Shown here: one piece after another, positions 13,964 through 27,759 of the stretch
Numbering within the stretch: the first letter of the stretch is position 1
Layout: every line of letters begins with the position of its first letter
Origin: Alicyclobacillus sp.
GTDB taxonomy: Bacteria > Bacillota > Bacilli > Alicyclobacillales > Alicyclobacillaceae
Direction: 5' to 3'
DNA: 35,766 nt
NCBI GenBank assembly: GCA_023512635.1
Contig: JAILZF010000005.1
Location: forward strand, 1 to 35,766
The notes under the pieces: model-generated
What the model was told of the DNA's origin: nothing
Database searches by the model: none
What the model saw: the letters and a program-made list of their open reading frames with translations, nothing else
Program-made: the position numbers and the translations under genes

Positions 13964-15489
13964 GTGGCACAGCCCAGGTGCTCGACGCCAGACTGCTGCA
14001 GGCGTTGCTGCAGACGCTCGGACCGCGCCGAGTCCTGCACCAACCAGCACATCTGCACGCGTACGCCTGTGACGGATACGTCGCGCAGCAGGGGTTGCCG
14101 AGGGCGGTGGTGTTCCCTGAGACGACGGAGGAAGTGGCCGCGGTGGTAAGCCTGCTCAACCAGTACGACGTCCCGTTTTTACCGCGCGGCGCTGGGACAG
14201 GGTTGAGCGGCGGAGCCACGCCGCTGCACGGTGAAGTGGTGATCAGCTTGGCGCGCATGAACAAGCTGTTGGCGGTCGATCTCGAAAACCTGCGCGCCGT
14301 GGTCCAGCCGGGGCTGGTCAACCTGTGGCTGACCAAGCGGGTGGCGCACGCCGGCTGCTATTACGCACCAGACCCGTCGAGTCAGTCGGTTTGCACACTC
14401 GGCGGTAACCTGGCCGAAAACGCTGGCGGATCGCACTGTTTAAAGTACGGGGTGACCACCAACCACGTGTTGGCGGCCAAGGTCGTGTTGCCGAACGGCG
14501 AGGTGGTGGACCTGGGAGCGACGTACGGCGATGCCGTTGGGTACGACCTGTTGGGATTATTGGTGGGTTCGGAAGGTACGCTGGGGATTGCGACAGAAAT
14601 CACCGTCCGGCTGCTCAAAAAACCAGAGGCGGTGCAGACCGCGCTGGCGCTGTTCGACCGCGTGGCCGATGCCTCGGACACCGTCTCCGCCATCCTCAGG
14701 GCGGGCATCGTGCCAGCGGCTATTGAAATGATGGACCAGCTCGCCATGCAAGCGGTAGACAAGAGCCATTACCATGTCGGTTACCCGCCAGACGCCGAAG
14801 CGGTGTTGTTGATTGAAGTGGATGGCTTGGCGGGCGGTGTAGAGGAGCAGATGCGGCGAGTGGTGGAGTTGTGCCGGCAACACGCGGCGCGGTCGGTGCA
14901 GGTGGCGCAGTGTGAAGAGGAGCGAGCGCTCTGGTGGAGCAGCCGCAAGATGGCCTTTGGCGCCACCGGCCGGATTTCGCCAGATTACATCGTCCAGGAC
15001 GGCGTGATTCCGCGCACCCGCCTGACCGAGGTGTTGCAGTACATTGCCGACTTGAGCCGGAACTCTGGGTTGCGTATTGCCAACGTGTTTCACGCCGGCG
15101 ACGGCAATCTGCACCCGTTGATCTGTTACGACGCGCGCATCCCCGGCCAGGCTGAACTGGCGGCTGCCGTGGGATCACAAATCTTGCGGGCGTGCGTGGA
15201 CGCCGGGGGCTCTATCACGGGTGAACACGGCGTCGGGGTGGAAAAACGGGCGGAGATGACATATCAGTTTTGTGACGCGGACCTGGCCGCCCAAGAGGCG
15301 GTGCGCCTTGTCTTCAACCCGCGTAACCTGTGCAATCCGGGCAAGCTGTTTCCGACACCCGGCCGCTGCAGCGAGGTACGGCAGTCTGCCTGGCTGGCCG
15401 CACAGTTTGCTGCGGTCAGCGCCGGTTTTCCTGAACAGACTCGGATTCTGGCGCCAGACAGACAGGGCCGACAGGATGGTGTATATTGA
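13960..15489 (+). CDS. glcD: Glycolate oxidase catalytic flavoprotein subunit GlcD
   Basis: FAD-linked 2-hydroxyacid dehydrogenase that oxidises glycolate (possibly also D-lactate) to glyoxylate. Its 509 residues include the PCMH FAD domain with PRGAGTGLSGGATPL and DPSSQSVCTLGGNLAENAGG, and the FAD-oxidase C-terminal domain with NVFHAGDGNLHP (metal/substrate histidines) and SITGEHGVGVEK. The ATG overlaps the glcF stop (ATGA) and follows AGGAGGAGGAACAGGC. About 30 residues after NPGKLFPTPG are a variable tail. D-lactate dehydrogenases of the same family look very similar, but accompaniment by glcE and glcF favours glycolate. Confidence 0.93.
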   Translation: MSGTAQVLDARLLQALLQTLGPRRVLHQPAHLHAYACDGYVAQQGLPRAVVFPETTEEVAAVVSLLNQYDVPFLPRGAGTGLSGGATPLHGEVVISLARMNKLLAVDLENLRAVVQPGLVNLWLTKRVAHAGCYYAPDPSSQSVCTLGGNLAENAGGSHCLKYGVTTNHVLAAKVVLPNGEVVDLGATYGDAVGYDLLGLLVGSEGTLGIATEITVRLLKKPEAVQTALALFDRVADASDTVSAILRAGIVPAAIEMMDQLAMQAVDKSHYHVGYPPDAEAVLLIEVDGLAGGVEEQMRRVVELCRQHAARSVQVAQCEEERALWWSSRKMAFGATGRISPDYIVQDGVIPRTRLTEVLQYIADLSRNSGLRIANVFHAGDGNLHPLICYDARIPGQAELAAAVGSQILRACVDAGGSITGEHGVGVEKRAEMTYQFCDADLAAQEAVRLVFNPRNLCNPGKLFPTPGRCSEVRQSAWLAAQFAAVSAGFPEQTRILAPDRQGRQDGVY

Positions 15490-15548
15490 CATGGAACACG
15501 AGGTTCAATGACCTGTGGACAGGCGGTTGTGACCATGGAGGTGGGCAC

Positions 15549-16442
15549 GTGGAACTGACGCCGGGGAACGCGGAGATTGGCTTTATCGGGACAGGTGTGA
15601 TGGGGAGTGGGATGGTGCGCAACCTGCTGCGCAAGGGCTACCGCGTGACGGTGTACAACCGCACGCGCAGCAAGGCGGCCGCTGTGTTGGCAGAGGGGGC
15701 ACGCTGGGCAGACAGCCCTGGCGCGTTGGCGGCAGCGTGCGACGCGGTGTTGACCATCGTCGGCTATCCGCAAGACGTGGAACAGGTGTACCTCGGGCCG
15801 GACGGGTTGGTGGAGCGCGCGCGGCCCGGGACGTATTTGGTCGACCTGACCACGTCTACGCCATCGCTCGCGCAGCGCATCGCCGCGGCAGCGCAGGCGC
15901 GCGGGCTGTACGCCCTGGATGCCCCTGTCTCAGGCGGGGATACAGGGGCACGCAACGGCACTCTGTCCATCATGGTGGGCGGGGATGAGGAGGCGTTTCA
16001 AGCAGTCTTGCCCGTTTTGCAGGCCATGGGACAGAACATTGTCAGGCAAGGCGGCCCAGGCGCTGGCCAACATACCAAAATGTGCAATCAGATTGCGATT
16101 GCAGCCAACATGGTGGGGGTCTGCGAGGCGCTTGCCTATGCCCAACGCGCAGGGCTGGACGCCCAGCGCGTACTGCAGAGCATTGCCACGGGCGCGGCGG
16201 GCAGTTGGTCGCTCAGCAACCTGGCGCCGCGTATGTTAAAAGGTGACTTTGCGCCGGGTTTTTACGTGAAGCACATGATCAAGGATTTGGGCATCGCGTT
16301 GGCGGAGGCTGAGCGGTTGCGGCTAGACCTGCCAGGCGTGGCGCTGGCCAAGCGGTTATATGAGCAGTTGGCGGGCCAGGGCGGAGCAGATGACGGTACC
16401 CAGGCCCTTTACAAGCTGTATGCCGCGGCTGGGCCAGCGTGA
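15549..16442 (+). CDS. Beta-hydroxyacid dehydrogenase (tartronate semialdehyde reductase-like)
   Basis: NAD(P)-dependent reductase of the 3-hydroxyisobutyrate dehydrogenase family. It starts with GFIGTGVMGSGM (cofactor binding), followed by the substrate motif DAPVSGGDTGARNGTLSIMVGG and the catalytic Lys177 with Asn180 in GAGQHTKMCNQ. At 297 residues it is full length. GTG 15549 is chosen because GGAGGTGGGCAC precedes it and the conserved domain follows directly; the in-frame ATG at 15486 overlaps glcD and lacks such a site. It follows glcD by about 60 bases and probably shares the operon. That context suggests reduction of tartronate semialdehyde to glycerate downstream of glycolate oxidation, but 3-hydroxyisobutyrate or a related acid could be the substrate. 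Confidence 0.8.
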   Translation: MELTPGNAEIGFIGTGVMGSGMVRNLLRKGYRVTVYNRTRSKAAAVLAEGARWADSPGALAAACDAVLTIVGYPQDVEQVYLGPDGLVERARPGTYLVDLTTSTPSLAQRIAAAAQARGLYALDAPVSGGDTGARNGTLSIMVGGDEEAFQAVLPVLQAMGQNIVRQGGPGAGQHTKMCNQIAIAANMVGVCEALAYAQRAGLDAQRVLQSIATGAAGSWSLSNLAPRMLKGDFAPGFYVKHMIKDLGIALAEAERLRLDLPGVALAKRLYEQLAGQGGADDGTQALYKLYAAAGPA

Positions 16443-16519
16443 TGGGCCAGAGGTGCGGATGGCCAGGGAGGGGGATGACGCGGGTCCATCCCTGTGCGCT
16501 GAGGCGGACAGGCGCCAAC

Positions 16520-16548
16520 TTGCGGGAAACTAATTAAACAAGTAAAAT
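16520..16548 (+). promoter_or_regulatory. Promoter upstream of the c-di-AMP riboswitch
   Basis: TTGCGG (16520-16525), 17-base AT-rich spacer, TAAAAT (16543-16548). It would start a leader of about 190 bases containing the riboswitch. Confidence 0.6.
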
Positions 16549-16622
16549 GATCACGTGTGGAAGGAATGCATCAGGACCAAGGCTGCAGCCGTCACCGGAC
16601 GTTCTCCGGCGCGGTCAGCCTC

Positions 16623-16730
16623 ACGCTGAATTCCGCCAGGAAGCGGGGGACCCACGACTGGGGTGAATCCGGCGACATTCAGCCGGTAGGGCTGCCTCGG
16701 CCCGAACCCGTCAGCTAACCTCGTAAGCGT
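16623..16730 (+). promoter_or_regulatory. ydaO-type c-di-AMP riboswitch
   Basis: The region shows the conserved blocks of the ydaO/yuaA aptamer in order: AGCGGGGGACCCA, GGGGTGAATCC, TAGGGCTGCC, CCGAACCCGTCAGC and TAACCTCGTAAGCGT. The closing stem P1 is ACGCT (16623-16627) with AGCGT (16726-16730). In known cases these aptamers bind cyclic di-AMP and switch off genes for potassium uptake, osmolyte transport or cell-wall hydrolases. Here no terminator stands between the aptamer and the next ORF: its ribosome binding site begins directly after P1. Confidence 0.93.
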
Positions 16731-16743
16731 TGGAGAGGAGAGG

Positions 16744-16908
16744 ATGGAAGTGCGAGAAGCGGTACCAGAGTTGAACCAGTTGTTGCGCGATGCTGAGATT
16801 CAGGAGCGGCTGCGGCAGCTGTTGCCGAAGCCACCGGTGCCGGCAGCGGTGCTGCCTTGGCGCTGGCGGCGTGTCCAGGCAAAGCGTATCGTGGTCCACA
16901 GCCGTTAA
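16744..16908 (+). CDS. 54-residue protein directly under c-di-AMP riboswitch control
   Basis: Small ORF from ATG 16744 to TAA 16908, preceded by the very strong GGAGAGGAGAGG. It begins 13 bases after the closing stem of the c-di-AMP aptamer. The N-terminal half (about residues 2-28) is charged and Leu/Gln-rich and should form an amphipathic helix. It is followed by a Pro-rich hinge (LPKPPVP) and a basic, Trp-containing tail (PWRWRRVQAKR). No transmembrane segment or signal peptide is visible, and I recognise no family. An 11-bp hairpin follows 12 bases after the stop. It could be a genuine c-di-AMP-responsive peptide or only an element in the leader of the downstream gnd gene; the ribosome binding site argues for translation. 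Confidence 0.6.
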   Translation: MEVREAVPELNQLLRDAEIQERLRQLLPKPPVPAAVLPWRWRRVQAKRIVVHSR

Positions 16909-16920
16909 CCCCCTGGCGTT

Positions 16921-16957
16921 CGGCCCGTCCGTGCGGTGGCTCCGTGCGGACGGGCCG
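16921..16957 (+). terminator. Very strong hairpin after the 54-residue ORF
   Basis: CGGCCCGTCCG (16921-16931) pairs perfectly with CGGACGGGCCG (16947-16957), and weaker pairs can extend the stem inward. No T-run follows; instead ATGTGTATAATG. It could end transcription from the riboswitch or be a dyad in the control region of gnd. Confidence 0.5.
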
Positions 16958-16962
16958 ATGTG

Positions 16963-16968
16963 TATAAT
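16963..16968 (+). promoter_or_regulatory. Candidate -10 box of gnd
   Basis: Perfect TATAAT about 100 bases before the gnd start. The -35 position falls inside the hairpin at 16921-16957 and does not match consensus, so an activator-dependent promoter or chance match is possible. Confidence 0.35.
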
Positions 16969-17066
16969 GGGGAGGGAAGAGCTGGACCTCTCATGAGGTA
17001 CATGGCACGATGCACGTGAGATGACGCTGCAGGATGTGCGTGGATGACGCTGCTGGAGATGATGGC

Positions 17067-17963
17067 ATGGACGTGGGGCTGTTTGGGCTTGGTAAAATGG
17101 GCTTTAACCTTGGTTTGAACCTGATGGAACACGGTCACCGCGTCCTGGCGTACGACCTTGACGCGGCAGCCCGGCGCCGATTCACCGAGGCAGGTGGTGA
17201 AACGGCAGATTCGCCTGCTGCCGTGGTGGCGCAACTGGCTTCACCGCGAACCCTTTGGCTGATGGTGCCACAGGGCAATCCTGTGGATCAACTGCTGGCG
17301 CAACTGCAGCCGTCCTTGGCAGCGGGGGATGTGGTGATTGACGGCGGCAATTCCCACTACCGGGACACCTTGCGACGCGCGGCTGCCCTGCGGGCACAGG
17401 GGATTGCGTACCTGGACGCGGGCACCTCGGGCGGCGTCGAAGGGGCTCGCCATGGCGCGTGCTACATGGTGGGCGGCGACGAAGAGGCGTTCCGCCGCGT
17501 GGAGCCGTTGTTCCGAGACACCGCGGTCGCAGGCGGATACCTGTACACCGGTCCTGCCGGGAGCGGTCACTTTGCTAAAATGGTGCACAACGGCATTGAG
17601 TACGGGATGATGGCAGCGGTGGGGGAGGGTTTTGAACTCCTGGCCAAGAGCCCGTTTGCTTACGACCTTGCCCGGTTGGCAGAGGTTTGGACGCACGGGT
17701 CGGTCATCCGGGGCTGGTTGCTGGAACTGACCGCCCGGGCCCTGGCCAAAGACCCGCACCTGGAAGGTATCAAAGGTGTCATGCATTCGTCAGGCGAAGG
17801 CAAATGGACGGTTGAAGAGGCCTTGGATTTGCAGGTGGCGACACCGGTGATTGCGCTGTCGCTGCTGATGCGGTATCGGTCCTTGAGCGATGATACGTTT
17901 GCAGGCAAGGTGGTGGCAGCCTTGCGCCGCGAGTTTGGCGGTCATGCGGTGGAAACGCGTTGA
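17067..17963 (+). CDS. 6-phosphogluconate dehydrogenase, decarboxylating, short type
   Basis: Converts 6-phosphogluconate to ribulose 5-phosphate with CO2 release (oxidative pentose phosphate pathway). At 298 residues it belongs to the short class, lacking the long C-terminal helical domain of E. coli Gnd. Visible motifs are GLGKMG (7-12), MVPQG, IDGGNSHYRDT (91-101), the GTSGGVEGA substrate loop, and catalytic Lys171 with Asn175 in KMVHNGIEYGMM. Asp30 ends the second strand of the Rossmann fold (AYDLD), which in this family suggests NAD rather than NADP. I start at ATG 17067, with GGAG upstream; earlier in-frame codons are not conserved. It lies downstream of the riboswitch-sORF unit, and the small membrane protein gene follows by 27 bases. 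Confidence 0.9.
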   Translation: MDVGLFGLGKMGFNLGLNLMEHGHRVLAYDLDAAARRRFTEAGGETADSPAAVVAQLASPRTLWLMVPQGNPVDQLLAQLQPSLAAGDVVIDGGNSHYRDTLRRAAALRAQGIAYLDAGTSGGVEGARHGACYMVGGDEEAFRRVEPLFRDTAVAGGYLYTGPAGSGHFAKMVHNGIEYGMMAAVGEGFELLAKSPFAYDLARLAEVWTHGSVIRGWLLELTARALAKDPHLEGIKGVMHSSGEGKWTVEEALDLQVATPVIALSLLMRYRSLSDDTFAGKVVAALRREFGGHAVETR

Positions 17964-26196: not shown

Positions 26197-26327
26197 CTCT
26201 TATCTAGAGTGGCGGAGGGACTGGCCCGATGAAGCCCGGCAACCATCGCTGCCGCACGGTTGGGCAGCGAAGAGGTGCCAATTCCTGCAGTGCGTCCACG
26301 TTCCGTGGACACGCTGAGAGATGAGAG
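26197..26327 (+). promoter_or_regulatory. SAM-I (S-box) riboswitch
   Basis: The aptamer shows the diagnostic blocks GGAGGGACTGGCCCGATGAA, GCCCGGCAACC, AGGTGCCAATTCC and GAGAGATGAGAG. P1 is CTCTTATC (26197-26204) with GATGAGAG (26320-26327). Binding of S-adenosylmethionine is expected to favour the terminator at 26364-26387 and so lower metX expression. Confidence 0.97.
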
Positions 26328-26559: not shown

Positions 26560-27759
26560 ATGTCAGGGACGGTTCAGTCCTGGGCGCCAGGCGGCACACT
26601 GCACTGGCAAGACCGTGACGAAGCCAGCGGGTGTGCGCGGGGCATGTTCACGCTGTCCGATTTTCGATTTGAATGTGGCGCCGTGCTACCCTCCGTACAC
26701 ATTTACTTTGAGACGTGGGGAACGTTGGCCCCCGACGGTTGCAATGCGGTCGTCGTGTGTCACGCCTTGACCGGGGATGCCCATGTGGCGAGCGGGTATG
26801 GCCGCGATGGCTGGTGGTCAGGTTTGGTGGGGCCAGGCAAGGCCATCGACACGCGGCGCTGGTTTGTGATTGCCAGCAATGTGTTAGGGGGGTGCACCGG
26901 ATCGAGCGGTCCAGCATCCCTGGCGCCTGACGGGCAGCCGTATGCCCTGCGCTTCCCGCCGGTGACCATTCGTGATATGGTACGCGCCCAGGTGGCGTTG
27001 GTGCAGGCGCTAGGCGTACGTACCGTGGCCTTGGTTACGGGCGGTTCGCTCGGGGGAATGCAGGTCTGGGAATGGCCGCTGCTAGCGCCCGGGCTCGTGC
27101 AGCGGGCCGCGGTGATTGCAGCCCACGCAGCGTTCCCGCCGCTTGGCATTGGCTACAACGAGGCGATGCGGTTGGCCATCATGGCGGACGCGGATTGGCA
27201 AGGGGGCAACTACTACGGGACGGGACGGGCACCGCGGGCTGGGCTGGCGGCTGCGCGAGCCATCGGCATGTTGACATACCGGACGGACTTGCTGTTTGAC
27301 GAGCGCTTTGGCCGCCGCCTGGTGACGGCCGAGGTGGCACAGGCGGCAGGCGCGGCTGGCTGGGAGGTGCAACCGGACCCGGCGGAGTGGCTGAGCGGCC
27401 GTGAACCGCTGTACGAGGTGGAGGCGTATCTGCGCCACCACGGGGAGAAATTGAACGCCCGCTTTGATGCCAACAGCTATCTGTACCTGACACGGGCTAT
27501 GGACGTGCACGACATCGGCCGCGGCCGCGGCGGCTTGGAGTCGGCCTTGGCCAAACTGGCGTGCGACGTCACGGTCATCGGCATCGACACGGACTACCTG
27601 TACGCCGCCCGCGATTTGCGCCGGACGGCAGCGCTGGCACGCGAGTGTGGGGTCCGCTGCCGCTACCGGGAGATTGTCTCGAAGTACGGGCATGACGCGT
27701 TTTTAATTGAGTTTGACCAGCTCAGCCGGATACTCGCGGACGTCTGGGCGGCGCGTTAA
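26560..27759 (+). CDS. metX: Homoserine O-acetyltransferase MetX
   Basis: Acylates homoserine for methionine synthesis (acetyl-CoA is the usual donor). It is an alpha/beta-hydrolase-fold enzyme of 399 residues, with the nucleophile Ser163 in GGSLGGMQ, a likely acid Asp345 in TDYLY, and His378 in KYGHDAF. The family stretches HALTGDAHV, NVLGGCTGSSGP and FDANSYLYLTRAMD are intact. The ATG has AAGGAGGG upstream. It is controlled by the SAM-I riboswitch, which independently supports a methionine role. Some MetX-family proteins use succinyl-CoA; I cannot tell donor specificity here. No other methionine gene follows directly. Confidence 0.96.
   Translation: MSGTVQSWAPGGTLHWQDRDEASGCARGMFTLSDFRFECGAVLPSVHIYFETWGTLAPDGCNAVVVCHALTGDAHVASGYGRDGWWSGLVGPGKAIDTRRWFVIASNVLGGCTGSSGPASLAPDGQPYALRFPPVTIRDMVRAQVALVQALGVRTVALVTGGSLGGMQVWEWPLLAPGLVQRAAVIAAHAAFPPLGIGYNEAMRLAIMADADWQGGNYYGTGRAPRAGLAAARAIGMLTYRTDLLFDERFGRRLVTAEVAQAAGAAGWEVQPDPAEWLSGREPLYEVEAYLRHHGEKLNARFDANSYLYLTRAMDVHDIGRGRGGLESALAKLACDVTVIGIDTDYLYAARDLRRTAALARECGVRCRYREIVSKYGHDAFLIEFDQLSRILADVWAAR

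Follow-up and report, generated by a model that had tools for sequence, protein, structure and literature searches.

We analyzed a 35,766-nt stretch of DNA from an Alicyclobacillus sp. (contig JAILZF010000005.1), hereafter the window. The genome from which it derives is a MAG of 1.76 Mb that is 63% complete and comprises 214 contigs. The region described here lies on the forward (+) strand between two genes: the first encodes a garR/3-hydroxyisobutyrate dehydrogenase-like protein (15486–16442; Pfam NAD_binding_2 and NAD_binding_11) and the second a gnd-like 6-phosphogluconate dehydrogenase (17034–17963; Pfam NAD_binding_2 and 6PGD). Between them are a c-di-AMP (ydaO) riboswitch aptamer (16614–16744), a gene for a 54-residue protein, designated ORF B (16744–16908), and a 17-bp GC-rich hairpin (16920–16958), with gnd being the next gene after the ORF. 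A possible promoter, TTGCGG-N17-TAAAAT, was read from the sequence at 16520–16553; it is putative, scoring under the threshold of a sigma-70 consensus scan.

According to an Rfam scan, the aptamer matched RF00379 over its full length (model positions 1–134) with a score of 106.1 bits, the gathering score being 38, and an E-value of 1.7e-24. The consensus core of the family was intact in the printed alignment. The clear ydaO-type aptamer described in the initial annotation was thereby borne out, and the riboswitch is an ordinary representative of a known class. The 3′ strand of P1 ends at 16729 and the ATG of the ORF starts at 16744, such that 14 nt separate the two, nearly matching the 13 first reported. 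The last modelled base of the aptamer, 16744, is the A of this ATG. The strong ribosome binding site ascribed to the ORF is likewise present, with TTGGAGAGGAGAGG just upstream of the start codon. Its Shine-Dalgarno sequence, GGAGAGGAGAGG, spans 16732–16743, and the ribosome binding site is supplied by the tail of the aptamer, GUUGGAGAGGAGAGG. The absence of a terminator between the aptamer and the ORF was upheld by inspection of the sequence and by a terminator-pattern scan, which detected no terminator-like site in 16430–17110. The very strong hairpin reported 3′ of the ORF was also found, as the GC-rich stem at 16920–16958, and is a possible 3′ end of the transcript. However, it lacks a U-tract and did not match the pattern of an intrinsic terminator.

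Three more RF00379 aptamers occur in the same genome. One (L003, 1501–1658) precedes a 356-aa ORF that starts 3 nt past the aptamer and has, by eye, a hydrophobic N-terminus. Another (L004, 247–425) precedes a gene that, also read by eye, encodes an ABC-transporter ATPase with the look of the osmoprotectant type. Elsewhere in the window, positions 26197–26327 hold an ordinary SAM (S-box) riboswitch (82 bits), downstream of which an ORF (26560–27759) resembles, by eye, homoserine O-acetyltransferase.

In the genomes G010, G021 and G028, the corresponding gene order is garR, riboswitch, terminator, ORF A, ORF B and gnd. In these relatives, ORF A, a second ORF, lies between the terminator and ORF B. 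Their garR genes are 73–75% identical to that of the window and gnd is 71% identical. Based on this identity and the common gene order, the window represents the orthologous locus minus the terminator and ORF A.

A single-sequence search of 61 relatives with the 54-aa ORF yielded only weak matches (E ≥ 0.02), three of which sit a few hundred bases behind riboswitches. At these three places, the riboswitch precedes a terminator, an ORF A of ∼180 aa and an ORF of ∼54–64 aa that has the core given below. A profile of the copies from ORF A loci found more small ORFs, located directly behind c-di-AMP riboswitches upstream of rplS. When a profile was built from the orthologous-locus copies and that of G016, leaving out the window sequence, it was the window ORF that came top of the window's 826 six-frame segments, at an E-value of 3.2e-6, better than expected by chance. 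A profile built from the independent rplS-locus copies only again placed it first among the 826 segments, with an E-value of 8.2e-4. These profiles excluding the window recovered the core PEL-x4-RD-x-(E)I-x3-L in the window ORF and, in the family alignment, ORF B belongs to the PEL-x4-RD-x-EI-x3-L family. The core reads PELNRLLRDEEIRARLDRL in G016, PELSKLLRDEAIAARLKEL in G028 and PELNQLLRDAEIQERLRQL in the window. The window ORF is a real gene, and its small product is predicted to be mostly helical.

AlphaFold2 predicted for the window protein one helix of fair confidence, residues 12–26, which coincides with the conserved core, and little else (mean pLDDT of 64.8, pTM of 0.32). The conserved part of the protein is its first ∼26 residues, a helix, and conservation is absent from the C-terminal half of the window protein. 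The Trp/Arg tail to which attention had been drawn proved to be peculiar to the window sequence; in the family alignment it is not common to the other members. No membrane segment is evident, and the protein is probably located in the cytosol. Searches of Pfam, NCBIfam and the sequences of the PDB returned no relative above the cut-off, and the weak matches to GerD (0.014) and RPN13_C (0.13) were dismissed as chance. No title or abstract found in searches on c-di-AMP riboswitches with a small protein or ORF, nor any on ydaO or c-di-AMP in Alicyclobacillus, reports the family; the early papers listing riboswitch targets lay outside the reach of this search. Judged by these databases and by literature titles and abstracts, the family appears to be undescribed.

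The combined profile matched 36 of the 41 Alicyclobacillaceae genomes in the set. Rfam scans placed an RF00379 aptamer upstream of the small ORF, in the same orientation, at 20 of 20 loci and then at 15 of 15 more, which with the window amounts to 36 of 36 genomes. G010 and G021 each carry an extra paralogue for which an aptamer is absent. A sample of 399 genomes of the class gave a single match outside the family, a weak one inside a 257-aa frame, and an aptamer was not detected at that locus. We also searched ∼85,000 species genomes with a composite DNA pattern in which the 3′ end of the aptamer is joined to the core of the ORF, a pattern that covers the rplS class only. It occurred in 18 places: 17 named or binned Alicyclobacillus and one unplaced Bacillota MAG. 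Together, the profile matches and the pattern places indicate that the family is one of the Alicyclobacillaceae; within the reach of the pattern, the pairing of aptamer and ORF appears to be confined to Alicyclobacillus-type genomes.

The distance from aptamer to start codon, which depends on our choice of start codons, is 56–105 nt at the rplS address and ∼640–670 nt where ORF A intervenes; in the window, the start falls at the last base of the aptamer. In the window's own genome, rplS lies ∼66 nt from the start of a contig. In most named species, the small ORF is followed by a GC-rich, terminator-like hairpin, usually with a T-run, and the unit in these species therefore appears to consist of a riboswitch, the small gene and a terminator.

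The loop of P6 was complementary to the 3′ tail of the aptamer in all 38 loci examined. The paired segments are CCUCUU and GAGAGG in the ORF A class, CCUAC and GUAGG in the rplS class, and CCUGC and GCAGG in G014. The mean pairing score of loop and tail was 14.2, as compared with 8.7 for shuffled tails (the maximum of 200 shuffles being 10.4) and 8.6 when tails were swapped between classes. In the window, the predicted pseudoknot joins CCUC in the P6 loop (16695–16698) to GAGG (16735–16738), the latter lying inside the Shine-Dalgarno sequence. At 4 bp, it counts as one of the shortest pseudoknots compared. Its arrangement and letters recur in the crystallised ydaO RNA, as ACUCCUUCG and CGAAGGAG (PMC5393176).

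Because the Shine-Dalgarno sequence doubles as the 3′ strand of the pseudoknot within the aptamer, translational control in the window is plausible. The ligand would stabilise the CCUC/GAGG pairing and so block initiation. Other ydaO switches are OFF switches; were the same to hold here, the small protein would be made at low c-di-AMP and hence at low K+. A comparable design has been described in Corynebacterium glutamicum, in which nlpC is governed by a translational c-di-AMP OFF riboswitch and a CTCC/GGAG pseudoknot has been proposed to cover the ribosome binding site (PMC9960051). That riboswitch resembles the window in lacking a terminator and in having a pseudoknot proposed at the ribosome binding site, but it controls a cell-wall peptidase, and in the window the tail of the aptamer is itself the Shine-Dalgarno sequence. 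The window likewise differs from the terminating ydaO riboswitches of the B. subtilis type, having no terminator between aptamer and gene and an ATG directly after the aptamer.

Folding calculations bear on whether the switch still operates in this manner. In the fold without ligand, the Shine-Dalgarno sequence paired with 16719–16722 and cost 3.8 kcal/mol to open; with the aptamer imposed, this cost fell to 1.6 kcal/mol, a value in which the pseudoknot is not yet counted. The folds do not show a switch: as the Shine-Dalgarno sequence is paired even when unliganded, both states may mask it, or the polarity may be reversed, and neither the polarity nor the strength of switching follows from the computation. 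Both values, together with the absence of a separate expression platform, would fit a real gene whose riboswitch no longer serves as an OFF switch in this lineage. Following loss of the terminator, the aptamer could then be a vestigial leader that keeps the Shine-Dalgarno sequence permanently and partly masked, or the polarity could be reversed, with the ligand freeing this sequence from its pairing with 16719–16722. We nevertheless consider loss of OFF switching unlikely, since the aptamer is well kept at 106 bits, as continued selection would give, and the pseudoknot over the Shine-Dalgarno sequence is conserved in every relative. Expression of the small protein is very probably set by the c-di-AMP riboswitch, and we favour a ydaO-like OFF switch.

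The layout of the window would have arisen through loss of ∼0.7 kb, comprising the terminator and ORF A, from the garR to gnd locus. In the relatives, GAGAGGAG occurs within the tail of the aptamer, and the ribosome binding sites of ORF B in G010 and G028 read GGGGGGAGAGCGATGGA. The junction in the window reads GGAGAGGAGAGGATGGA, as though the two had been joined at a GGAGAG repeat. Recombination between GGAGAG repeats, one in the tail of the aptamer and the other in the ribosome binding site of ORF B, may have caused the loss. We infer it from the sequence of one assembled contig of a 63%-complete MAG. Conversely, the window arrangement could be ancestral, ORF A and the terminator having been inserted in the relatives, a polarity that would agree with the rplS locus, where the small ORF directly follows the riboswitch. 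Such an order of events is unlikely: by its tail (GAGAGGAGAG) and its locus, the window aptamer falls into the ORF A class, all other inspected members of which have ORF A, and the junction resembles a join of two GGAGAG stretches. If deletion is the correct account, the window illustrates how a single such event could turn a transcriptional switch into a translational one.

ORF A has relatives of its own. The family, with members of ∼160–200 aa, was present in 23 of the 59 genomes of the order, which span two bacterial families, at loci L044–L050, L054–L055 and L057–L066 (for example, L066, 1464–1968, + strand). ORF A had no match in Pfam or NCBIfam. Of the 23 loci, 19 have an RF00379 aptamer upstream; on this linkage, ORF A is a second unknown family tied to c-di-AMP riboswitches, in both of these bacterial families. 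In G008, ∼1.1 kb separates a 6S RNA (L139, 977–1155) from the ORF A riboswitch downstream of it.

To evaluate coding conservation, pN/pS was calculated for pairs of ORF B homologues. The ratio was between 0.12 and 0.29 for most close pairs, including 0.12 for G063/G064, 0.14 for G018/G025, 0.19 for both G002/G024 and G026/G004, 0.22 for G031/G033 and 0.25 for G029/G026. Two close pairs lacked a low ratio: G010/G028, at 1.16 with 9 changes, and G027/G020, at 0.60. For the window against G016, pS was 0.66 and pN 0.24 over the 21-codon core, while over all aligned codons pN/pS was 0.75, indicating little synonymous bias. Overall, the codon comparisons indicate that the small-protein family is under purifying selection. 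The initial annotation had held that the ORF would be only leader sequence if neither a conserved frame nor synonymous bias could be found in related genomes. This check did not refute the gene: the frame and core are conserved, and selection is purifying.

That the small ORF is only leader sequence of gnd here and of rplS elsewhere, either a frame arisen by chance or a regulatory uORF, whose peptide lacks a function of its own, is highly improbable: the ORF is indeed short and lies upstream of gnd in the window and of rplS in many relatives, but its amino-acid core is kept over 36 genomes with low pN/pS, the family is present at two unrelated addresses, a terminator-like hairpin stands 3′ of the ORF in most species, and profiles built from the other address alone detect the window ORF. 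The suggestion that the ORF only lies in the leader of gnd is not supported, as most relatives have the homologue elsewhere than near gnd, with a terminator-like hairpin of its own behind it.

The probable explanation of the locus, and the best one, is that it contains a genuine small-protein gene of an undescribed family that is restricted to the Alicyclobacillaceae as far as searched, and that this gene is expressed under the control of a c-di-AMP riboswitch. The proposal that c-di-AMP riboswitches have, in a small protein, a novel type of output gained support from the family-wide conservation of frame and core, from purifying selection and from the riboswitch in 36 of 36 genomes. Known ydaO/RF00379 riboswitches act on transporters, kdp operons and cell-wall hydrolases, mainly large proteins. 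The window aptamer is of the same family as the ydaO/yuaA (kimA, ktrAB) riboswitches by covariance model, loop–tail pseudoknot included; by contrast, its only immediate target is a protein of ∼45–55 aa of no known family.

As judged from the switch class only, the small protein may have a role in K+ or osmotic homeostasis. As a guess drawn from the regulon, the conserved helix may bind a partner protein that acts in the homeostasis of K+/osmolytes or of the envelope. More tentatively, the family may be a dedicated, conserved c-di-AMP output throughout the Alicyclobacillaceae, acting as a protein-binding K+/osmotic regulator made at low c-di-AMP, with the pseudoknot strand now serving as the ribosome binding site in the window; we regard this full reading as possible but somewhat doubtful. 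KdpF and E. coli MntS are small regulatory proteins or subunits of ion transport. Their likeness to the window protein is that of small proteins under ion-homeostasis control, an analogy only, with no sequence similarity shown. The family-wide, conserved single-gene unit, composed of a riboswitch, a ∼45-aa protein and a terminator, suggests that the c-di-AMP response has a small-protein arm. It also offers a short candidate that can be tested in species amenable to culture, Alicyclobacillus hesperidum among them.

The loci at the rplS address have a design unlike that of the window, with a linker hairpin beside or over the Shine-Dalgarno sequence. In 31 of 31 such loci, the linker was unusually complementary to the 5′ strand of the aptamer, with duplex energy z-scores of −1.9 to −6.5 (median of −3.8). 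This complementarity is what an anti-aptamer switch would need, and the rplS-class linker, as in L098, L112 and L116, is likely an expression platform through which c-di-AMP riboswitches act on translation in Bacillota. Near rplS, the small ORF is present in a second copy in G021 (L133, 2348–2560) and in G010 (L134, ∼2247–2336), in reverse-complement coordinates. These copies have no detectable aptamer, yet a hairpin, CCCGCGATTG..CAATCGAGGGGGG, lies over the Shine-Dalgarno sequence and resembles that of the riboswitch-linked copies in other genera.
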